Shown: piece by piece, positions 7,146 through 59,357 of the stretch
Layout: the number at the start of each line of letters is the position of its first letter
Numbering within the stretch: the first letter of the stretch is position 1
Source: Anthostomella pinea
Taxonomy: Eukaryota > Ascomycota > Sordariomycetes > Xylariales > Xylariaceae
Reading direction: 5' to 3'
Length of the DNA: 64,000 nucleotides
Assembly (NCBI GenBank): GCA_963556695.1
Contig: CAUWAG010000018.1
Location: 2,666,001 to 2,730,000, forward strand
Translations under genes and position numbers: made by a program
The notes under the pieces: generated by a model
The model's input: the letters and a program-made list of their open reading frames with translations, nothing else
What the model was told of the DNA's origin: nothing
The model's database searches: none

Positions 7146-7326
7146 AAAGACGACCAGGTCAGCTCATCATAATTACATGGACAACCCGCACACTCTTACC
7201 AAAAACAACTATTTTTCTTGGCGCCCCGCTGTTAGGGCGCAACCTCTATATCTGCACTAAAACAGGCATTTATTTCAGTACCTGACTATCCTTGCCAAGG
7301 CGCAGAAAATTTTTCTCACAAGCTGG

Positions 7327-8904
7327 ATGGCACCCCTTCACGATAGGCCCCCAAATACGCCAGTGGCCGTCCCAAAGACGACTACTGGCGGCGTGCTCAA
7401 ATCCCCGGTCCCTAAAAGAACATATGGCCCGGCAACCCCAAGCAAGCTCCGCCAGGCACTGCTCGACGACATCAACAGCAGCCCGTCACAGGTCTCTGAG
7501 GCTGACTTCACCATTGTTTCCCCTCTGAAAGGAAAATCCCGAAATATTAATACTAGCAGCATCATTGATATGGAAGTACCTCAATCAAACGAAATCTCTA
7601 CAGACCAAGCCATTGGAGGCGATACAGGGAACAAGGTCTCTTCCTCAAAGTGCCAGGACCAAGTAGCCAAAATACTGGCTAAAGACAAGCATCTCTATGA
7701 AGCCAGGATGACAATGTTTCAAGAGTGTGCTGCAGCAGTCGATAAGACACTGGAAAAAGCTGGAACCGAACTATACTCTCATGCCAAGGAGTTCAGCGCT
7801 TTCTTCTCCAAATGCCTGAACGAGTGGCTGGAAACCCGAGATCTGCCCAAAAGAAAGACCACTCCTGGCGGGATAGGGATAGGGAAGCCCACCATGACCT
7901 TCGCCCAAGCTGTCTCCTCTGGCCAACGACAGCATCCATGGACAGTCAACACTACCATGAAGAAAACACAGCCTGGCGCCCTTATCACTACCAACCAACT
8001 GAAGAAGAAGCAGGATGATCTCCGGGTCTTTGTCCGCATGGATAATAGCCACTTAGAGCCTTATGGAATCAAGTCTACACTGAACAGAAGACTTAAGCTC
8101 CACCCTCAGGAGCTTAGAGAAGTGACACGGTGTCCTTCTGGTTTTACCTTACACCCAAGGGACAAGCCAACTCAGGCTAAGCTTCTGGCTTTCCAAGAAG
8201 AAATTGCCGACATTCTTAAGGCACAAAAGATTGAGACCCACACAGTCTGGTATCATTACAAGGTCAATGGATGCCCAAGAAAGGTCATCAGTGCAGAAGG
8301 GTTCACAATTGATATTACTGACACTGTTATTGCCAATGAAGTTGAAGCCCAAACAGGCGACAGACCTCTGAGGTGCATACTCTCAAAGAACACGATTGAT
8401 TCTGATCCAGAAACTACATGGATAATCTCTCTGCCCAGTGCAGCAAGGAAACCATTCACGCTTTTTGCCCACTCAATGACCTCAAGGCATATTCAACACA
8501 CCCCCAAGGTTCACCAGTGTGCAAGCTGCTTCAGATACCATGGTAGGAATTACCGATGCGAAAAGCAAGTATGTGCACACTGCGCCAACACAGTACACCA
8601 GGGAGAGTGCGAAAAACTAATCCCAAAGTGTGTCAACTGCAAAGGACCTCATGCTGCCAACTTCGACAAATGCCCTGCCCGCCCCAAGGTTGTGAAAGGT
8701 ACCATCCATAAGCACACATGGGAGCAAATCCAGGAAATAAGGCTAGCCGGAGAAAGAGCCAGATCCAAGGCCTTCAACGAAGCAGGCAGAAACCAAGCTG
8801 GGTCAACACCTAGCAACAATAACAAAGACACCACAATGCAAATCGACACAACAGATACAACTCATCCCAGAGATGCCGATACCATTGTTGTCAGTCAATG
8901 TTAG
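7327..8904 (+). CDS. LINE ORF1 (Gag-like nucleic-acid-binding protein)
   Basis: A 525-residue protein starts at ATG 7327. Its C-terminal third carries a zinc-knuckle region around residues 396-455: CASCFRYHGRNYRC, CAHCANTVHQGEC and CVNCKGPHAANFDKC. These are the cysteine/histidine clusters expected of LINE ORF1 proteins that coat element RNA. The N-terminal half is Lys/Ser/Pro-rich with no enzymatic motif. The stop codon overlaps the ORF2 start in ATGTTAG. The homologous decayed reading frame is at 46721 onward. Confidence 0.88.
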   Translation: MAPLHDRPPNTPVAVPKTTTGGVLKSPVPKRTYGPATPSKLRQALLDDINSSPSQVSEADFTIVSPLKGKSRNINTSSIIDMEVPQSNEISTDQAIGGDTGNKVSSSKCQDQVAKILAKDKHLYEARMTMFQECAAAVDKTLEKAGTELYSHAKEFSAFFSKCLNEWLETRDLPKRKTTPGGIGIGKPTMTFAQAVSSGQRQHPWTVNTTMKKTQPGALITTNQLKKKQDDLRVFVRMDNSHLEPYGIKSTLNRRLKLHPQELREVTRCPSGFTLHPRDKPTQAKLLAFQEEIADILKAQKIETHTVWYHYKVNGCPRKVISAEGFTIDITDTVIANEVEAQTGDRPLRCILSKNTIDSDPETTWIISLPSAARKPFTLFAHSMTSRHIQHTPKVHQCASCFRYHGRNYRCEKQVCAHCANTVHQGECEKLIPKCVNCKGPHAANFDKCPARPKVVKGTIHKHTWEQIQEIRLAGERARSKAFNEAGRNQAGSTPSNNNKDTTMQIDTTDTTHPRDADTIVVSQC

Positions 8905-11900
8905 GTACATCAAACGAAACATATCGACACAGGCATCTAGTCATCCATTCTGTGAATACAGCAGGGGGACAAAAGAGTGCAGGCCCTACAGAGTTAGCCA
9001 TCAACCTGGCTGACTATAAAGGAGAACAAGCAGACATCATTCTGATGCAAGAGCCCTGGGTTGGCATACCACCAGGCAGGAGAATGGGAGTAAAGACACA
9101 CCCCAATTACGATATATTCTCCCCAGTGGATTCCTGGGACAGCGACAGTACACGGCCCAGATCTCTCATCTATGTGAGAAAATACCTTCAAGCGGATCAA
9201 CTTCGGCCCTATGCTACACGAGACATCACCTGGGTCAAGGTACAAGGCATTACATTTGCCAGTGTCTACCGGCCATGTGACAACCCACAGGAAGTGGATG
9301 ACATTCTGGAAGTATGGACTCCACCTTTTGGCTGCGTTATAGCTGGAGATTTCAATGCTGGCGACACATCCTGGGACTCAAGCAATCCAGGATATCATGG
9401 TGGTGCTATACTTGCACAAACTATGGCAGACCACGGACTGGATCTGATTTCTGAACCAGATGTCCCGACACATGATGACGGAAATGTACTAGATCTGGTG
9501 TTCTCAGATGTCCCCATGGCTGAAGCCTCAGTCAATGATGCACTTCAGTGCACCTCAGATCATGAGACATTACGAATAGTCATTCCAATCCAGGGAGATC
9601 TGGACCGAGTACCCAAGGCCAATCATTGGATAGTACCGGACGATAAACTACAGGAGCTGGCAGATAATGTCCAAACCAGGATTCATGAACTCCCCCGGCT
9701 GGGTGTATCCCCTGGCCAGGTGGACACCTTTACACAAAGCCTGATCAACATGATCCAAGGCTGTATCAGGACAGTGGGCAAGAGGCCCCGTCAATCTAGG
9801 CCCACTGCTTGGTGGAATGATGACTGCAAAGCAGCTGTTCAGACATACAGGGCCCTTTCCAAACAGACTACAAGCCAAGAAGGACGGAATTCAGCCCGAC
9901 GGGAATTTCGCGGCGTGGTTCGGAAAGCTAGGAGAGAGTATTGGCAGACTCTAATCAATTCAGCAACTGAGCCAAAGGACCTATACAGAATCGTCTCTTG
10001 GCACAAGTTATCAGCAGGATTGCGTTCCCCTCCAATCATCATAGGAGACCAAATATTCGAGTCACAAGAGAGCAAGGCAAATGCATTACGCTCAGCCACG
10101 CTTGAACGAAGTACCTCAGACAACGATATCATCGACCCCTGGTCCGCTCAGATCATACAACCCAAGCCACACATCCCCCTTGAATACCACGTCGGACTAG
10201 AAGAGGCTGAAGGGTGCACTTTAGGAACCAAGAGCAACTCCCCGGGAGTAGATACCCTCACAGTACGGATTCTGAAAGCTTGCTGGCCAGTCATTGGTGA
10301 ATATATCAGAGCCCTTTTCCAGACCTGCCTACTAATTGGACACCACCCTAAACCATTCAAAGTAGCTGAGGTGGTGATGATCCCAAAACCAGGAAAGAAA
10401 GACTACTCCAATCCCAGGGCCTACAGACCAATATCGCTACTGTCATGTCTTGGCAAGGGCCTAGAACGACTCATTGCGAAAAGAATTACCTGGTTTGTTG
10501 TCAAACTTGGAATTCTAGCCCCACAACATTTTGGAGCTCTACCAAAGCGCTCTGCCACTGACCTGGTAGCTGCACTCATACACGATATTGAGCAGGCCCT
10601 TGACCAAGGCCTCGTTGCAACGGTAGTCACATCAGATGTGAAAGGGGCCTTTGATGCTGCCCTAATGGGACGGCTGGTGGTTCGCATGAGAGAACAGGGC
10701 TGGCCAGGCTTTCTCATAAGATGGGTCCAGTCGTTCATGTCCGAGCGGTCCGCAAGAGTTCGGTTTGAAGGTACTGTGACCGATATAAAAGCTCTCACTT
10801 GTGGGCTCCCACAAGGCTCACCAGTCTCTCCAATCCTCTACATGCTGTATACAGAGCCAATCTGTGCCCGACTTGGCATGAAAAGAAGACGCTTTGGATA
10901 TGCAGATGACCTAGCAACACTCTGCATTGGAAAGAACCTTAAAGAAATAGCTACAGAGGCTTCTGAAAACCTTCATTTGCTCAACCAATGGGGACATAAC
11001 AATGCTATTGAATTTGATCCCGACAAAACCGAGATCATGCACTTCTCACGGAAAAAGAACTCAGACAATCCCCCAGTTTGCCACGGAACAATGAACAAAA
11101 CAGCTAAGCATTCCATGCGATGGCTAGGTGTCCTTCTGGATAAGAAACTAAACTTTAAAGACCATGTTTCTCACTGGGCCAAGAAAGCTAGTAGGGTAGC
11201 AAATCACCTTCGAGGACTATGCAACACAGTCAAAGGACTTCCAGTAAAGTCAACCAAGAGGGCTGTGAAAGCTTGTGTTATTCCTATTCTCACACATGGC
11301 CTGGAGGCCTGGTACCCAGGAATCGAGAAAGCTGGGAGCTTAGGTGAGACATCAGCATGTCGCATTAAGGGGCTTCTTGGAACAATAGATGCCGTACTAC
11401 GAACGGCGATCAGGGCTATCTTGCCAGTCTGGAAAACACACCCTGGACATATCTTACACTTTGAATCGCAGATTCCCCCAGCAGGAGTTCTTGCAGAGTC
11501 AATAAGACGACGTCACGGCCTCCGACTAGGACGAATAGATCAGAGACACCCTCTGGTTGGCAGGCTCCAAATACAAGCTCGCAAGGATCCAACAAGGCTA
11601 CAAAGGAGCTTCCAGCTAGTCCCTGACTTCCAGAGACCAATACTTACCAGGCCATCATGGAAGAAGCGCCCAATCCGTAAAGACAAAGATAAAGAAACAG
11701 AGCTCTTTAAGCAATGGTTACAAGAGAGAAACGTGAACACTAACCTTGTCATCTACTCAGATGGATCACAGTTGGATGACCAAGGCACAATCCGCACTGG
11801 ATGGGGTTATACCATCAGGAAAGGCGGCACTACACAAGAAGTATACCGGGGAAGGGGCAGACTTCTACAAGCAGAAGTAGTAGATGCTGAAGTCCATGGT

Positions 11901-12590
11901 GCTCTCCAAGGTCTTGTAGCAGCCAGAGCAATTGGACACGGAAAACAGCTATATGTCTGCCTGGACAACACATCAGTGGTAGATGGGCTCAATGGGACTC
12001 CACCCGAGACATCACAAAACATTTTTTTACGATTTCAAGAACTTGCCACAGCACACACTCCTGGAGTGACCGTCAAATGGATTCCTGGACACAGAGATAT
12101 TGATGGCAACGAAGCTGCCGACACACTAGCAAAAGAGGGTGCCATGCTAGAAACAGACACAACAAATCTTCCTACAATCTCTTGGGTCAAGAGAGATCTC
12201 AAAAAACAGGGCAAGAAAGAGTTCAACCAATGGTGGAAAGACCAATCAGAATCTAGGTATCAAGAAGTATACTCACATGCAGTAACTGAAAGAGACCTTA
12301 TATCTTTTAAGAGGAGTACTTTACACAGACTTCTAGCGGCCAGATCTGGACATGGCGACTTTGCCAGATACCATGAACGCTTTGGGCACACAGATTCAAA
12401 TGATCACTGCAGCTGTGGTGAGAAGAAAACACCACAACACATTTTCTTTTGTAAGAGGCTGGGGAAAAATCGGCTACTGCCTAGGCATTCGCCTAGGGCA
12501 GCTTGTTTACAATACTTAGGGGAGAGGAGCACAGAATGGGCAAAATTCGTGGAGAAGAGCAAGTTCTTTTCAACAATCTGCCCCCGATAG
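8898..12590 (+). CDS. LINE ORF2 (AP endonuclease, reverse transcriptase, RNase H)
   Basis: A 1,230-residue polyprotein. The endonuclease lies at about residues 10-230, with IILMQEPWVG, VIAGDFNAGDTSWD and TSDHETL. The reverse transcriptase lies at about 480-740, with TSDVKGAFDAA, GLPQGSPVSPILY and the catalytic FGYADD near residue 667. RNase H lies at about 950-1080, with IYSDGSQLDDQG, LYVCLDNTSVVDGL and IPGHRDIDGNEAAD. A terminal CSCG...HIFFC zinc-like cluster follows. The enzyme nicks the target and copies element RNA at the nick. All catalytic residues checked are present and the frame is uninterrupted. Translation probably depends on termination-reinitiation at the ATGTTAG overlap with ORF1. 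Confidence 0.93.
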   Translation: MLGTSNETYRHRHLVIHSVNTAGGQKSAGPTELAINLADYKGEQADIILMQEPWVGIPPGRRMGVKTHPNYDIFSPVDSWDSDSTRPRSLIYVRKYLQADQLRPYATRDITWVKVQGITFASVYRPCDNPQEVDDILEVWTPPFGCVIAGDFNAGDTSWDSSNPGYHGGAILAQTMADHGLDLISEPDVPTHDDGNVLDLVFSDVPMAEASVNDALQCTSDHETLRIVIPIQGDLDRVPKANHWIVPDDKLQELADNVQTRIHELPRLGVSPGQVDTFTQSLINMIQGCIRTVGKRPRQSRPTAWWNDDCKAAVQTYRALSKQTTSQEGRNSARREFRGVVRKARREYWQTLINSATEPKDLYRIVSWHKLSAGLRSPPIIIGDQIFESQESKANALRSATLERSTSDNDIIDPWSAQIIQPKPHIPLEYHVGLEEAEGCTLGTKSNSPGVDTLTVRILKACWPVIGEYIRALFQTCLLIGHHPKPFKVAEVVMIPKPGKKDYSNPRAYRPISLLSCLGKGLERLIAKRITWFVVKLGILAPQHFGALPKRSATDLVAALIHDIEQALDQGLVATVVTSDVKGAFDAALMGRLVVRMREQGWPGFLIRWVQSFMSERSARVRFEGTVTDIKALTCGLPQGSPVSPILYMLYTEPICARLGMKRRRFGYADDLATLCIGKNLKEIATEASENLHLLNQWGHNNAIEFDPDKTEIMHFSRKKNSDNPPVCHGTMNKTAKHSMRWLGVLLDKKLNFKDHVSHWAKKASRVANHLRGLCNTVKGLPVKSTKRAVKACVIPILTHGLEAWYPGIEKAGSLGETSACRIKGLLGTIDAVLRTAIRAILPVWKTHPGHILHFESQIPPAGVLAESIRRRHGLRLGRIDQRHPLVGRLQIQARKDPTRLQRSFQLVPDFQRPILTRPSWKKRPIRKDKDKETELFKQWLQERNVNTNLVIYSDGSQLDDQGTIRTGWGYTIRKGGTTQEVYRGRGRLLQAEVVDAEVHGALQGLVAARAIGHGKQLYVCLDNTSVVDGLNGTPPETSQNIFLRFQELATAHTPGVTVKWIPGHRDIDGNEAADTLAKEGAMLETDTTNLPTISWVKRDLKKQGKKEFNQWWKDQSESRYQEVYSHAVTERDLISFKRSTLHRLLAARSGHGDFARYHERFGHTDSNDHCSCGEKKTPQHIFFCKRLGKNRLLPRHSPRAACLQYLGERSTEWAKFVEKSKFFSTICPR

Positions 12591-21173: not shown

Positions 21174-22280
21174 ATGGATTTATGATCTTTTGGGGACGAA
21201 TTAAGCGGTAATCGCGTCGCTAACGGCGAATTCACTTCAGAAGCTCGCTCGGCAATCGTGGCGGCGCGAATCGACGGCAGAACGCGTAGGGATGTTGCAA
21301 CCGCGTTTAAAACGAAGCGCTTGAAAACCATCTCCGATATTACCACCAACTTTGAGGCCACTTCTACACCGAAATCTGCCCCAAGGAGCGGTCGCCCACC
21401 CGTTTTGAATACTCGCGAACGCGCTCATGTGATCGAAAAGGCGAGAGAGCTCACCAGGGCGACGTGGCAGAAGATTCGAAACGAAGCCTGCGTTTCGTGC
21501 TCTCCCAAGACTATCAAGAGGATATGTCACGCACACGGCCTCCAGAAGTGGCGCGCAGCGAAACGAATCAAGCTCACAGATGAGGACGCTCAGAAGAGGC
21601 TCGCTTTTGCCAATTATTATAGCACACCAGAGCGCCTGGAGGAGTTGTTGCAAGCTATGTTCTCAGACGAATGTACGGTCCAAAACTCATCCGATAATCC
21701 AGGCGATTGGGCCATCCGATTCTCTTCAGAGCGGTACCGTTATGATCTCGTGAACGAGACGGATCACGGCAAATCTCGTATTTTAATAATGGTGTGGTCT
21801 ATGATCTGGCTACGCGGCAGAGAAGGAGGACTAGGCAAGTTGGTCTTCTGCCCACTCGATCCGGATGCTCCGCGCGGAGGAGTATCCGCAGAGTCATACA
21901 AATGGGTTCTTGAGGAAGACCTGCTTCCGTTCTACGAGGCTGGAGATCCTTTTGTTCAAAATAACGCGAAAATTCACCTCACTGGCGGTGTTCCGGAGTG
22001 GATGGAGGAGCACGGCATCCACTGTATCGACTGGCCTCCTCACAGCCCCGATATGAACCCAATCGAGCATGTTTGGCGACTTCTGAAGAAGAACATACGT
22101 GAAATCGAGCCTGAATTTTCTGAATTGAAGGATAATATCCCCTATTATCGCTACGCACACGAGTTAATTGAGCAGGCGTGGTCAGAGATCGATCCGGAGC
22201 AGGTTCGGGCCTTGATGGAGTCACTGGAGGACCGAATAGCTGCAGTGAGGCGTGCCGGTGGTTGGTATACACACTATTGA
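21174..22280 (+). pseudogene. Tc1/mariner transposase, inactivated
   Basis: The likely start ATG is at 21174, but codon 4 is TGA (21183-21185). The rest is open for 365 codons. Visible features are an N-terminal helix-turn-helix (SEARSAIVAARIDGRTRRDV), SGRPPVL, MFSDECTVQNSS with the first catalytic Asp, and DWPPHSPDMNPIEHVWRLLK with the catalytic Glu. The second catalytic Asp, normally in QDNA, is replaced by Asn (VQNNAKIHL, about 21955-21980). An early stop plus loss of a metal ligand makes the enzyme inactive. Single-base transitions explain both changes. Confidence 0.85.
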
Positions 22281-47450: not shown

Positions 47451-47662
47451 TGTGACGGCCTGCACAGACCTTCCCACATGACAAGTGGATACTTCCTAAT
47501 AGGGGAAGGATCTGACCAAAGGATCCCCTTAAAGGGGCAACCTCCCACTGTACCTATCTCTCTCTCTCTTCCTTTCCTCTCTAGTCTTGATATTTTCGTC
47601 AATAGAGTAATAGCTACTTGCTGCCGGCCATGTCCCAGCTCCTCAGTACGCTCGCCGTGACA
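47451..47662 (-). repeat. LTR of the gypsy element
   Basis: 212 bp bounded by TGTGACGG on the plus strand and CCGTGACA at the other end, an imperfect inverted TG...CA pair as in LTRs. It joins the LINE fragment on the left and the pol remnant on the right. Target-site duplication could not be tested because the far LTR is missing. Confidence 0.65.
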
Positions 47663-49310
47663 GGAGCGGATAGCGATCCTTCTGAATGATAGCATTCAGC
47701 TTGCGGTAATCAATGCAGAGTCGGAGGCCTCCATTAGCCTTCCGCGCAAAGAGGATATGGGCAGCCCATGGAGCAGACGATGGCTCGATGAAGCCTTTCT
47801 TCAGGTTGTCAATGATCCACTTCTGGCACGCTTCCATCTCTTCAAGAGATATCTTATACAGTGACGAATAACCCAAACTCTTAGGGTCAGCAGTAAGGTC
47901 AATCTTGTGATCTATTCCAGGCCGATGAGGAGAGAGCTTGTCGGATTGGATCTTACTAAAGACATCAAGGTGTTCATAGTGCTGCTTCGGTACCAGCTCG
48001 TGTGCCTGGCGTCTGAGATCATTATTATCTTCTGTTAGCATCGTTTGCTTATGATTAATAATGCGATTGATCTCGAATAAGGTAGTGACACCATCCTCAG
48101 TACCCTCTTCAGCCTTAACTCGGTCGAAGAGCACGGAACCGACCATGGCCACCTTGAGGGGGCGATGACGGTACCAGCTGATTCCGTTTCTTCTCATTAT
48201 ATATGGACCCTGAGCGTCATATTGAACTTGTTCCGATATAGATGGCTCATGACGATCTCGGACAGGTATGTACGGTGTTGTTGGTGAGGGCTGTCGCGAC
48301 TCGTCGTTATGGAAATCGAAGTCAAGCAATTCGTTCATCCGATCTGTAGCTGTAAGGACTCTGCGATGGTCGTTACGCCGGGGCTGAAGGATAACCAGAG
48401 TAACAACCTTTCCAGAAGGGGAATCATCAGTCACCTGATCTCTCAAAGTTCCGCGATCCGTCATGGCTGGATGATTGTGAATTAGGTGCTCGATTCAAGC
48501 GCGTATAAGGCTCAGATCAACTCTTTCCAAGAGGGTTTCTATTCCTTTATAATTAGAATGGTCAGGGCATTTGGGGATCTTTTCCACTGTTGGAGCGCGG
48601 TAGTCAGACGGGATCACTGTGACTGGACCGAAGCGCACGCGTCGGGAATCGCGGCGGCATTTATCGTCGGTTTCCATCAGTTCGTCACGTCTGGCGGCAT
48701 CCTGATCGTATGCGGGATCTTTGAGCAGGGATCCTGCCGAGTTCATAGGAATCTCAGGCAACGCGTAATAGTCAGGTGCCCATTCGCCTGGAAATAACAA
48801 GCGTTTCCAGAGAGAGTCGACCAGAACGTCGTGTCTGTCAAAGAACTTCTTGCCGACTATTACGTTGTGTTTCATATTAATTACCAGCAAGGGTACATTG
48901 TATACCATCCGGCCTTGTATACGGACATGGGCTCAGAGGGCCACATTGATGGTCTATGTGGACCTGCCATCGTATCCAGTTACTGGAGCGGGTTTGAATC
49001 CCTGGATCTTCTCCGCACAGAGGTGCTTAGAGACTTTAGAAACGAATGGCAAGTTTATCAGTATATATGCACCCACACTTGTGTCAGCAAGACATTGTGT
49101 TGTTAGGGAAACTCCATTATTAACTATGATGCAATCCAGTAATAAAGGGTCTCCCCCCAGAATCTGGGAAAAGAAATCAGTGGGTATCTTCCTGCAAGTA
49201 TCAATGTCCAGCGCTGAAATCAGATGTGGTCCCCTGGGACGGGTGTCAGGTTGATCCAGGGTTAGACTTTTCCCTCCGTGGCAGGCAGGGCGGCAGCGGT
49301 AGTGTGACAA
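47663..49310 (-). pseudogene. gypsy protease and reverse-transcriptase remnant
   Basis: Successive broken frames encode a retropepsin-like stretch (CLADTSVGAYILI, with DTS where DTG or DSG is usual), a connecting region (NVIVGKKFFDRHDVLVDSLW), and the beginning of RT: MEACQKWIIDNLKKGFIEPS, SSAPWAAHILFARKANGGL and RLCIDYRKLNAIIQKDRYPL. The YxDD catalytic region is absent. Two or more stops split the frames. It is non-functional. Confidence 0.75.
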
Positions 49311-55970: not shown

Positions 55971-58900
55971 ATGGCACCTTCCAAGCAGGAGAAGGCGCCC
56001 CCCTACAGCAAGGATGAGAAGGTGCTCTGCTTCCATGGGGACCTGATGTACGAGGCCAAGGTCACCGAGGTCAAGGTCGAGGCCGGAAAGAAGGCCGAGG
56101 ACGCCCAGTACCGCATCCACTACAAGGGTTGGAAGGCAAGCTGGGACGACTGGGTTTCGCACGATCGAATTCGCAAGTTCACCGACGACAACAAGCAGCT
56201 GGCCACCCAGCTGCAGGCCCAAGCCCGCATGCGAACCCAAGGCCCCAAGGGCGGCAAGAAGAGTGGTGTCAAGCCGAACGGCTCCGAGATGAGTTCCGCT
56301 CGCGGCAGTGAGGAGCGCGCCGCCGGATCATTGAGTTTTGCCGGAAGAGGTCCACGACGGGGACGGGACTACGAGTTAGAGAATGTGAGTGCTCCCCCAT
56401 TTCTCTCTTTTCCCTCTCTTTCTTTCCCGAAGCTGCATTGCTCTGCTTCGTATGTGTTCCGTATGGCTTTGAAGACCGTGTGCGCCGCCGCGTGAAGTGA
56501 ATGAGGGGAGCGTCTGCCCCGATCTACGAGATATATCGTCAATAAATTCGAAGCACCTCCTCCGAGGAGCATGGATGAAGAAGAAGAATCAGTGGTACCT
56601 ACCTGCATGACCAATAGCGGCTGTCGATTCTTGCCAGTGAATTCTGACCGTTGCTGCGGTCACTCAATCTGCATGGTCAGCCACTTGGCTGCGAGCTTCC
56701 CTCGACCAACACTGCATCATCCGGATAGTCGTGGCTAGGAGCGTGCAGTCAGATACCATCTGACCGTGGTTATCATTTGAGGTTGTGTGTTTGCACTAGG
56801 TCTGAACCAGGAAGCACAACTTTCGAGGGGAGAGGAGTGTGACAACCCGATCCGCAATTTTCCAGCTGCGCAGGAGGAGGACAACACCAGCCTGCCCTCA
56901 CAAAACACAACAGCGGCAACCTTCCCATTTCTCCAGAACCAACAACCAGGGATCGGCCAACACTAGCACCCTCAAAGATGCTTCCAGTGTGAGCTCTGCC
57001 CTACAACTGCCCACCAACACGAGGGGTCGTCGACTATCTCTTCCTCGCGCCAACACCTGCACACACACACACACAAACCTCGATTGGTACTCTCACGTTT
57101 GGCCAATATCCTCCCCTCGTGGTCAACGAATCTTCTCGTGTACCAATTCTTGGACCAATTCCTCTAAGGATTTGCCATCATTTCCTCCACCTCTACACAG
57201 CTGCAATTATTCGCCTTCTCCTCCCCCGATCCAGTCTTCGACCTCCAACCTCCAAGCACTGATCCCTGATCTATCCGACTCGATGTCCGATAAACCAGCA
57301 TCTCCAGAGGCCATGTCGGCAATGGATTCTTCTCCAGAGACCACCTCGGTAATGGATTCTTCTCCGCCGGTGGAACTTAGGCGATCTCAGCGCGAGCGGA
57401 AGCGTGTGATCTCTTTGGCAGATTTCGAGATGCCTCAGAAGCGAACTCGCAGCAACACGACCAAGCACCTGGAAGCTTTCGCATTTTCGCACCTCTCTCC
57501 CCATCGCCCTGTCAAGAAGCCCGATGCGGTCAGCTTCCCTAACCTTGCTGCCGACGGCCCTGTCAAGAAGTTCGAGGGTGTCGCTTTTCCCAATCTTGCT
57601 CCCGGCGGCGCATCTCTGGCGCAGGCCGAGTCTTCGCGCTCGTCTCCTACTGCACCCACCTCCCATGGCACCAGCTTCCAAGCGTCACCGGCAGCGACGC
57701 ATGCACGCACGCTGCTACCGCCGCTGAGACCCGCACGCACGCCGCTACCGCCGCTGAGTTTCGCGCGTATGAAGCTACCGACACTGGATACCGCGTCCAG
57801 TAAGCCTGCACCAAAGGAGACTGCGTTGAAGAAGCCATCGCAAAAGAAGTCATCGCACAAGTCGTCGCACCAGACTTTGTTGCACCAGACCTCCTCGCAC
57901 AAGAAGTCTCACCACAAGAAGTCAGCGTCCACTCAGGCACCACTCAATGAACCAACTGGCCGCAAGAAGACTGCAAAGCACACCCGCTTTCAACAGGGGA
58001 CCGAACTGTTGTCTGCAGAAACTGTTGCTTTTCGCCAGAAGGAGGCCGAGTGCAATAGAGCGCAGACATGCAAAGACCACCTCATCGCACTGCCGCCTTC
58101 CGGCCTTGTCTATGTGGACAACAAGCAGCGACTCGTCTTCGATGAGAAGCGCTTCCAGCCTGAGAAGGTCATCTCCGTCCCAAAGCAGCACCCGAAAGCA
58201 AAGGCGGCGGCTCGACTTGGGCTTCTGCATGCGGCACTAGAGCGCTATTACGAAGGAATGCCGGCTAACGTGACTATTCCCATCGCGGGAATTCCGTCTT
58301 TAAAGCCATACGCCCCTCTCTATGCAGCTGCTATGCCTTTTATTTGGCGTGCCGTTCGAGCAGCCTTGACTGACGAGATCACTGACTTTTCACCGCCTGA
58401 CGAGATCATTCACTTTTCACTGCCTGACGAGATCACTGACTCTTCACTGCCTGATGAGATCACTGACTTTCCACTGCAGGAAGAGGCATTCCATGCCAGA
58501 CCCTCTGTCAAGCTTCTCATCCCGGATATGCTGAAGGCATTGATGGTGGATGATTGGGAGAACATCACCAAGAACATGCAACTTGTGCCGCTTCCGCGCC
58601 CCAAACCGGTCAACAAGATCCTTGAGGATTATCTTGCGTATGAGCGTCCGCGACGACAGGATGGCTCTTCACATGTGGCCATTCTCGACGAGACCTTGGC
58701 TGGCTTGAAGGAGTACTTTGACAAGGCTCTCGGTCGCATTCTCCTGTACCGGTAAGTGCTCTCCTCGCCTTCCATATCCCCGCCGTTCTCTTCTTGTTTG
58801 CCCACTCATTCGCTTTTCCATGCTGCCCTGCCATCCCTAGTATTATCATACTGACAGGCACAAGATTCGAGCGAGCCCAGTATGCTGAAATGCACAAGAA

Positions 58901-59210
58901 GTGGAACTCGGCTGATCCTGAGTTCTCTGGCAAGACCGCAAGCGACACTTATGGTGCAGAGCACTTGACTCGTCTTATGAGTAAGTCATACCTGAATACG
59001 TGTCATCTTATAGATTTGTACGGTTACTAACAATATCCAGCGTCCCTGCCGGAGCTTATTGCCCAGACAAACATGGATCAGCAATCTGTCAATCGTCTTC
59101 AAGAGGAACTGCTCAAGTTCTGTGGGTGGCTGTCCAGAAACCATACCGATTACTTTCTCAGCAATTATGAGTCTCCCAACTCTGACTACGCCGAGAAAAT
59201 CAAGAACTAG
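55971..59210 (+). CDS. eaf3: Eaf3/MRG15 chromatin protein (chromodomain plus MRG domain), with a 2.1 kb first intron
   Basis: The gene model uses exons 55971-56384, 58480-58751, 58865-58980 and 59041-59210, giving 323 residues. Exon 1 encodes the chromo barrel: DEKVLCFHGDLMYEAKVTEV and YRIHYKGWKASWDDWVSHDR. The later exons encode the MRG domain: HARPSVKLLIPDMLKALMVD, VPLPRPKPVNKILEDYLAYE, AGLKEYFDKALGRILLYR, YGAEHLTRLM and SLPELIAQTNMDQQSVNRLQ. Eaf3 is a shared subunit of NuA4 acetyltransferase and Rpd3S deacetylase that reads H3K36 methylation. The splice sites (GTGAGT at 56385; CTGAC and CTGCAG before 58480) fit phase 0 on both sides. The first intron is about 20 times longer than usual here and carries a long open frame (next entry). 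Confidence 0.85.
57283..58479 (+). CDS. Nested open frame inside eaf3 intron 1, in phase with the MRG domain
   Basis: From ATG 57283 (in-frame GTG at 56839 is less likely) a frame of 399 codons runs without a stop to the eaf3 acceptor and continues in the same phase through the MRG exons. It encodes MSDKPASPEAMSAMDSS, RRSQRERKRVISLADFEMPQ, two SFPNL/AFPNL-type repeats, a Lys/Ser/His-rich linker (KKSSHKSSHQTLLHQTSS), a more ordered block (LPPSGLVYVDNKQRLVFDEK, GIPSLKPYAPLYAAAMPFIW) and then four DEITDFSLP-type repeats. No family is recognised. Either it is an alternative first exon giving a 584-residue MRG fusion, or an inserted sequence that reads through by chance. Codon use looks coding. 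Confidence 0.55.
58371..58478 (+). repeat. Four 27-bp repeats containing the eaf3 splice acceptor
   Basis: Four units of TGACGAGATCACTGACTTTT-type sequence (27 bp each). Each contains a CTGAC-like branch site (mutated in unit 2) followed by CCGCC, CTGCC, CTGCC and finally CTGCAG, so only the last unit is a true acceptor. In the nested frame each unit encodes a nine-residue DEITDFSLP-type repeat. This is a local amplification of splice-site DNA. Confidence 0.85.
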
Positions 59211-59240
59211 TTTTCACACGGCTATCGGTGAGCCTTCAGA

Positions 59241-59357
59241 CAATTGGCGATGCTCCACACAATCGGCGATGCTTCACACAATCGGCGATGCTTCAACAAT
59301 CGGCGATGCTTCACACAACCGGCAACACACAACTGGCAAGGCTTCACAATTTGCGAG
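59241..59357 (+). repeat. Tandem repeat of ~19 bp just after eaf3
   Basis: Units of CAATCGGCGATGCTTCACA (variants CAATTGGCGATGCTCCACA, CAACCGGCAACACA, CAACTGGCAAGGCTTCA) occur about four to six times in a row, beginning 30 bp past the eaf3 stop codon. It is probably in the 3' UTR. Confidence 0.75.

Follow-up and report, generated by a model that had tools for sequence, protein, structure and literature searches.

Eaf3 is a reader of methylated H3K36, and Eaf3/MRG15 proteins anchor histone deacetylase complexes and acetyltransferase complexes to chromatin methylated at H3K36. We analyzed the eaf3 gene in a 64,000-nucleotide stretch of the genome of Anthostomella pinea, a member of the Xylariales (contig CAUWAG010000018.1, forward strand; hereafter the window, whose own positions are used throughout), in which the first intron of eaf3 holds an open frame that continues in phase into the exons for the MRG domain.

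A nested open frame in the first intron of eaf3

The chromodomain of Eaf3 is encoded by exon 1, whose 138 codons end in phase 0 at a GTGAGT donor, and the MRG exons begin at 58480 behind a CTGCAG acceptor with the branch motif CTGAC at 58463-58467. Splicing of four exons yields an Eaf3 of 323 amino acids (aa), and full-length alignment shows 81-84% identity to the three best matches of the protein search. This splice model bears out a preliminary description of the same DNA, which had placed the donor at 56385 and the MRG exon from 58480, both at phase 0. The shared exons pass the PF05712 cut-off, as expected of the MRG domain of Eaf3/MRG15, and a search of this genome turned up a single MRG locus.

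The preliminary description had also reported a 399-codon in-phase frame within the 2,095-base intron, and the stop-free stretch proves to be longer still. It is open from 56806, giving 558 codons up to the junction, reads through the 3' splice site (58479/58480) in phase 0 with the MRG exon and, if unspliced, ends at TAA 58753-58755. The nested frame has no stop of its own ahead of 58753, and so it does not qualify as an independent gene nested within its host. We compared its length with 4,000 simulated introns, 2,000 from a first-order and 2,000 from a second-order Markov model. Runs of at least 399 stop-free codons in any forward frame occur in 0/2,000 first-order and 4/2,000 second-order introns (one of them in phase at the junction), and 558 stop-free codons occur in none of the 4,000. 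The open frame exceeds chance expectation.

Codon scores, taken relative to the codon use of nine open reading frames (ORFs) of the window, show a coding signal in the nested part (+0.035 bits/codon), compared with -0.36 and -0.20 in the other forward frames and -0.21 to -0.32 in the reverse frames; eaf3 exon 1 scores +0.34. The open stretch ahead of the ATG at 57283 (56806-57282) scores -0.29 bits per codon, which rules it out as coding sequence, and because the score turns from negative to positive there, the ATG region marks the onset of the coding signal. The periods of all seven tandem-array rows within 57283-58479 are divisible by three (30, 51, 30, 15, 12, 15, and 27), compared with one of seven outside, the rows overlapping one another. 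The RRSQRERKR basic motif and the Lys/Ser/His-rich linker described earlier are both found in the nested translation.

The in-phase frame from ATG 57283 stands, while the choice of that codon as the start does not hold up well. Its context is poor (T at -3 and T at +4), and ATG 57322 and ATG 57352 both have G at -3 and +4, a 30-base tandem repeat supplying the former as a second copy of the latter. From the sequence context, ATG 57283 is probably an upstream extra, and 57322 or 57352 is the likelier start. A scan of 179 database proteins found the motif KRxISLxDxExPxKRTR in six models plus the A. pinea one, and in five chromodomain-less models it lies 6 to 17 residues past the first Met. ATG 57352 lies 16 residues from this conserved motif, a distance equal to that in the Camillea model. 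The features of the locus are collected in Table 1.

Table 1. Positions of the eaf3 exons, the nested frame and associated features in the window
Feature	Position	Strand	Basis or remark
eaf3 exon 1, chromodomain (PF22732 / PF11717)	55971..56384	+	hmmscan E 1.7e-21
eaf3 intron 1 of the chromodomain isoform, 2,095 bases	56385..58479	+	GTGAGT...CTGACTTTCCACTGCAG; removal yields full-length Eaf3
Nested transcript, putative promoter plus 5' untranslated region	56900..57282	+	Non-coding codon score; base skew
Putative nested alternative first exon	57283..58479	+	399 codons if started at ATG 57283, with 57322 or 57352 the likelier start; codon score, profile matches
Conserved N-terminal motif KRVISLADFEMPQKRTR	57400..57450	+	Also in models P0124, P0126, P0129, P0130, P0139, P0031
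Lys/Ser/His-rich low-complexity linker, predicted disordered	57800..57990	+	Sequence; AlphaFold pLDDT <50
Nested domain, conserved core (residues 245-345)	58015..58317	+	Helix, beta pair, two helices, then IPxAGIPSxKPYxP
Four 27-base tandem repeats, the last ending in branch point and acceptor	58370..58477	+	TRF 4 copies, 88%
Intron 1 branch point (CTGAC) and acceptor (CAG)	58463..58479	+	Nested isoform would read T-D-F-P-L-Q
Shared MRG exon 2	58480..58751	+	PF05712 E 4.9e-30 for 58480-58752
Shared MRG exon 3	58865..58980	+	PF05712 match; splice sites
Shared MRG exon 4 with stop	59041..59210	+	PF05712 match; splice sites

Directly after the eaf3 stop codon (59208-59210) lies a 19-base tandem array (59234-59323; 4.8 copies, 90% matches). 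Elsewhere in the window, ORFs judged by eye look LINE-like (long interspersed element; 7261-12590, two ORFs), like a Tc1/mariner-type transposase (21186-22280), and like a gypsy-type fragment (47643-48494).

Conservation of the nested segment and of its junction

When the nested part was searched by itself as a single protein sequence, nothing matched at E 0.001, though relatives are present in the database. Homologues came instead from the Eaf3 protein search, in which over-long models were spotted among the best 120 of 1,657 hits. Five models with an insert between chromodomain and MRG are alike to the nested part: P0031 (86.7 bits; 42% identity over 103 aa to the nested core), P0030 (56.2 bits), P0026 (39.7 bits), the Leotiomycete protein P0120 (39.7 bits), and P0032 (35.0 bits), with E-values (3e-23 to 5e-6) that refer to a ten-sequence set only. 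The insert of P0024 is tied to the window through P0026 and has no direct match to it. A profile of seven inserts plus the first MRG exon matched 91 proteins, many of them without a chromodomain family. We analyzed 47 proteins, namely 44 of the 91 plus P0026, P0032, and P0120 from the Eaf3 search, which are not among the 91; the remainder of the 91 comprises Eaf3 proteins of ordinary length, short fragments of MRG, P0121, and some long models that belong to other groups. Inserts were cut by pattern in 45 of the 47 and by hand in P0146 and P0169. Eight of the 45 cut rows carry a chromodomain end and 37 do not, the latter consisting of 22 named records and 15 unnamed database proteins.

We then evaluated the inserts with two profile tests. 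In test 1, the profile was built from 30 segments (21 from named records of the Xylariales type and nine unnamed, the window excluded) and run against 19 left-out segments and 380 shuffled sequences; 17 of the 19 were listed, 16 of them at E <1e-3, and none of the shuffles. The window matched at 2.7e-41 over residues 24-367, which includes the N-terminal motif, Mycothermus (Sordariales) at 1.3e-17, Coleophoma at 1.5e-13, and Metarhizium (Hypocreales), Fusarium nematophilum, and Colletotrichum truncatum (Glomerellales) at 7e-5 to 6e-4. Mariannaea reached E 0.021, and P0105 and P0175 did not match. Because most rows had come from a query containing the window, in test 2 each named row was run against a profile without its own genus. 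The results show that 30/32 named rows match at E <1e-3, including the window (5.5e-39), Fusarium (3.6e-11), Colletotrichum (8.6e-9), and Mariannaea (2.7e-6), and 0/1,600 shuffles do so. P0150 is marginal (E 0.0013) and was counted as a member for its core motif, which is plain in the alignment. The Trichoderma gamsii protein P0175 was rejected, its N-terminus having no match in either profile test. The chromodomain-less named members therefore number 21, that is, 20 of the 22 at E <1e-3 plus P0150.

Judged by these sequence comparisons, the nested segment is conserved as protein and is coding. Its members come from four orders of Sordariomycetes (Xylariales, Sordariales, Hypocreales, and Glomerellales) and from Leotiomycetes. 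The search for homologues of the nested residues that the preliminary description had proposed thus found them at the same junction in other fungi. The second N-terminus joined to MRG that it had proposed is supported, and the arrangement is not confined to this genome: it recurs in the four orders and a Leotiomycete.

Some other Eaf3 models were noted as well. The Colletotrichum inserts P0082, P0084, and P0105 reached at best E 0.2-0.4 to the window in the ten-sequence set and were kept out of the profiles; they are inserts of 229-246 aa at the same junction and are 61-74% alike among themselves. P0171, P0174, and P0176 (two unnamed ena proteins and Teloschistes exilis) are Eaf3 models with long sequence ahead of MRG. 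P0029 of Hypoxylon texense is Eaf3-like (73% identical, with MRG and chromodomain families) yet deposited as ATP citrate lyase subunit 1.

An MRG tree of 53 rows shows that the nested-type models do not form a common clade. They stand beside the chromodomain Eaf3 of their own or a related genus wherever such an Eaf3 was in the set, with support of 99% for Daldinia, 96% for Nemania, 92% for Biscogniauxia, 86% for Seiridium with Pestalotiopsis, 95% for Colletotrichum, and 94% for Metarhizium. Monosporascus with Diatrype, and Xylariomycetidae FL0641, have no close partner in the tree set, and the A. pinea MRG exons sit on a long branch (0.19). The tree shows that the MRG parts are orthologous to Eaf3 and, together with the single MRG locus of this genome, rules out a separate MRG paralogue. 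The position of the nested exon within the eaf3 intron is seen at the DNA level for the window only, and for relatives it is deduced from the tree and the models that hold both parts.

At the junction, the nested frame overlaps the branch point and acceptor of intron 1. A branch motif CTAAC or CTGAC can be translated without a stop as [ASPT]-[ND], and a CAG acceptor in phase 0 gives a final Gln. Together with the window the 45 make 46 rows, of which 31 have Gln as their last residue, and 28 of these 31 have [ASPT]-[ND] 4-9 residues before the junction, the exceptions being P0152, P0162, and P0120. The same pair occurs in 1,132 of 7,050 windows (16%) elsewhere in these sequences, a contrast that gives no true probability because the rows are related. 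The codons ahead of the junction thus appear to fit a translated branch point in 28/31 rows, the bases themselves having been read for the window only. In A. pinea, this stretch has expanded to four 27-base repeats.

The predicted nested domain and its possible partners

The AlphaFold model of the window protein has 10-residue means of the predicted local distance difference test (pLDDT) of 60-92 over residues 241-330 and mostly below 50 in the rest of the nested part. Residues 245-323 are modeled as a helix, a beta pair, and two helices (helices at 245-264, 304-311, and 317-323), and the model of the Daldinia protein has the same order of elements.

Searches of known families and structures turned up no significant relative apart from MRG and chromodomain entries. 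Among 25 aligned members, Pfam at E 0.1 gave MRG and chromodomain families only, with PF05712 in 25/25; no chromodomain family was found in 56806-58752 at E up to 1. From its domain content, the predicted nested product is an MRG protein and not Eaf3 in the strict sense. Foldseek against PDB gave 40 matches for the Daldinia model at E <=0.001, all of them MRG-type entries, and for the window model none at E 0.001, the best 12 again being MRG-type entries. The nested part, compared by sequence with PDB, had a single match (E 0.22).

The same partners are expected for both proteins because the MRG module is unchanged. With its intact MRG, the nested form would enter the Rpd3S/Sin3 deacetylase, bind Eaf7 of NuA4, and possibly Ash1; the genome does encode Eaf7. 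In solved structures of Rpd3S, two chains per entry match the MRG part (7yi0 C and E, 8hxx M and O), which indicates that two Eaf3-like seats exist. Lacking the methyl-lysine reader, the nested form might compete with Eaf3 or re-target the shared complexes, which is the least secure step of the proposal.

Proposed origin of the nested product and comparison with known systems

The eaf3 locus probably makes two proteins, chromodomain-MRG and, from an intronic promoter, nested-domain-MRG. The upstream promoter would give the chromodomain-MRG protein (Eaf3), and a second promoter inside intron 1 would give an mRNA with the nested frame as its first exon. This mRNA would be read straight across the sequence that serves the longer transcript as branch point and 3' splice site, and its product would consist of the nested domain and MRG, with no chromodomain. 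As in an alternative-first-exon isoform, a first coding stretch of its own, the nested part, continues in phase into exons that are shared, and the gene models of relatives show it at the same junction, either as chromodomain-nested-MRG or as nested-MRG without a chromodomain; the deposited Daldinia eschscholtzii model begins within the nested exon. The preliminary description had likewise envisaged two proteins from one locus; same-junction homologues and protein-level conservation support this, with expression of the second protein an inference. Over the 300 bases ahead of 57283, C is abundant and G scarce, with a skew of -0.44 that is near those of eaf3 (-0.35), MVD (-0.36), and p37 (-0.38); the skew is weaker for MetE, KR, p40, and p24 (-0.06 to -0.25) and is -0.03 in the first 510 bases of the intron. 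This base skew favors a promoter of its own and is only supportive.

Splice signals bear on the alternative that the nested frame is a cassette exon, in which exon 1 would be spliced into it at 57235 or further inside to make a long chromodomain-nested-MRG protein. CTRAC is present in all three eaf3 introns. Between 56806 and 57352 there are nine in-phase AGs, and it lies within 45 bases of none of them (one has YTRAY at -42). Because the in-phase acceptors ahead of the conserved motif lack CTRAC and the start is conserved, an alternative first exon driven by a separate promoter is favored. The deposited A. pinea protein P0121 (738 aa), which contains the nested part and the MRG exon at 100% identity, nevertheless continues from exon 1 into the residues that start at 57235, where the acceptor tract has 13/15 pyrimidines, and the chromodomain end is also joined to the insert in 8/45 cut rows and in Mariannaea P0169. 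Neither CTRAC nor YTRAY lies within 45 bases of 57235, the sequence 56806-57282 is not coding-like, the residues that link exon 1 to the conserved motif vary among the fused models, and the chromodomain-less models start just ahead of the N-terminal motif. Further inside, between 57353 and 58014, three of 34 in-phase AGs (57568-57577) have a single CTRAC motif in common, 27-36 bases upstream of them, and a shortened cassette exon could use them, but such an acceptor would lose the conserved N-terminal motif. Because these acceptors have a branch motif, we weighed the cassette exon slightly up and the two-protein reading down, and we still regard a cassette as unlikely.

It is very unlikely that the nested frame was once coding and is now noise in a long intron of this species, with no transcript. 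The long branch of the A. pinea MRG exons and the modest codon bias would suit such decay, and they are opposed by 558 codons without a stop, tandem repeats that preserve the frame in all seven rows, and a core that still matches relatives. Even less credible is a decayed or selfish insertion, in which the intron received an unrelated gene that is in phase by accident and non-functional. DNA fragments of the nested frame, 81-86% identical, do lie in mosaic regions on contigs C2, C4, C7, and C9, but the frame is whole at eaf3 and the copies elsewhere are short, and the same domain occurs at the same junction across several orders; conservation at the orthologous position argues against a recent insertion. 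The fragments measure 89-163 bases (L014, L015, L016, and L017, at C4:1719427, C2:5730765, C7:5862140, C9:3593369 and C9:3591655), and the mosaic regions around them have other repeated pieces in common, one of which looks C2H2 zinc-finger-like by eye.

Besides the branch motif at 57568-57577 and the models that join chromodomain and insert, several points weigh against two proteins from this locus. The coding signal of the nested part is weak, with 8/9 reference ORFs above it in leave-one-out scoring (range -0.19 to +0.49). Overall confidence is low for both the window model (mean pLDDT 55.6, predicted template modeling score, pTM, 0.24) and the Daldinia model (63.3 and 0.41), and the nested domain has no known function or fold match in Pfam or Foldseek. 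The A. pinea annotation was made with Augustus, GeneMark, and homology, and RNA sequencing is not mentioned in the accessible main text of the genome paper. Gene callers fuse long in-phase ORFs, so the models of relatives speak for conservation and not for a transcription start; the 15 unnamed chromodomain-less rows look mostly like plain ORF translations and are uninformative on that point.

More tentatively, and with considerable doubt as to the whole, we suggest that the nested form may be an ancient, so far unrecognized second identity of the Eaf3/MRG15 locus, retained through Sordariomycetes and Leotiomycetes, with an intronic promoter, a new domain in place of the reader, a branch point and acceptor that double as code, and one of the Eaf3 seats in Rpd3S-type complexes, which would thereby be redirected. 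If an MRG form that lacks the reader is indeed made and conserved, eaf3 deletion and tagging studies in fungi with the nested form have handled two proteins at once, there are more kinds of Rpd3S and NuA4 complex than assumed, and a coding exon and a splice acceptor have shared the same bases over long evolutionary times.

Animal MRG proteins of the MRGX/MORF4L2 type also lack a chromodomain, but they are separate genes, whereas here one locus would supply MRG with a new front domain. The predicted nested product and Eaf3/MRG15/Alp13 have the MRG exons in common base for base, and they differ in front, where Eaf3 has the chromodomain and the nested product another N-terminal domain. In a Neurospora context, EAF-3 appears as the RPD3S reader (PMC6251624). 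Titles and abstract beginnings in the PMC literature on Eaf3/MRG15 and wider, a set outside which most subscription papers fall, describe no such form of Eaf3. Mouse MRG15L and MRG15S are splice variants of one gene with differing histone binding, two MRG15 proteins from one gene as proposed here, and the abstract of that study names no replacement N-terminal domain (PMC12145428). A comparable arrangement is that of the mammalian KDM2A/B short forms, which come from intronic promoters, with an intronic first exon that drops the N-terminal domain of a chromatin gene and downstream exons that are shared (PMC7000146). Loss of an N-terminal domain in isoforms from an intronic promoter is therefore already known. 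Compared with the KDM2A/B forms as described there, a large conserved domain here replaces the chromodomain, and its coding frame overlaps the branch point of the other isoform; the nested domain and this arrangement at eaf3 appear new within the literature searched.

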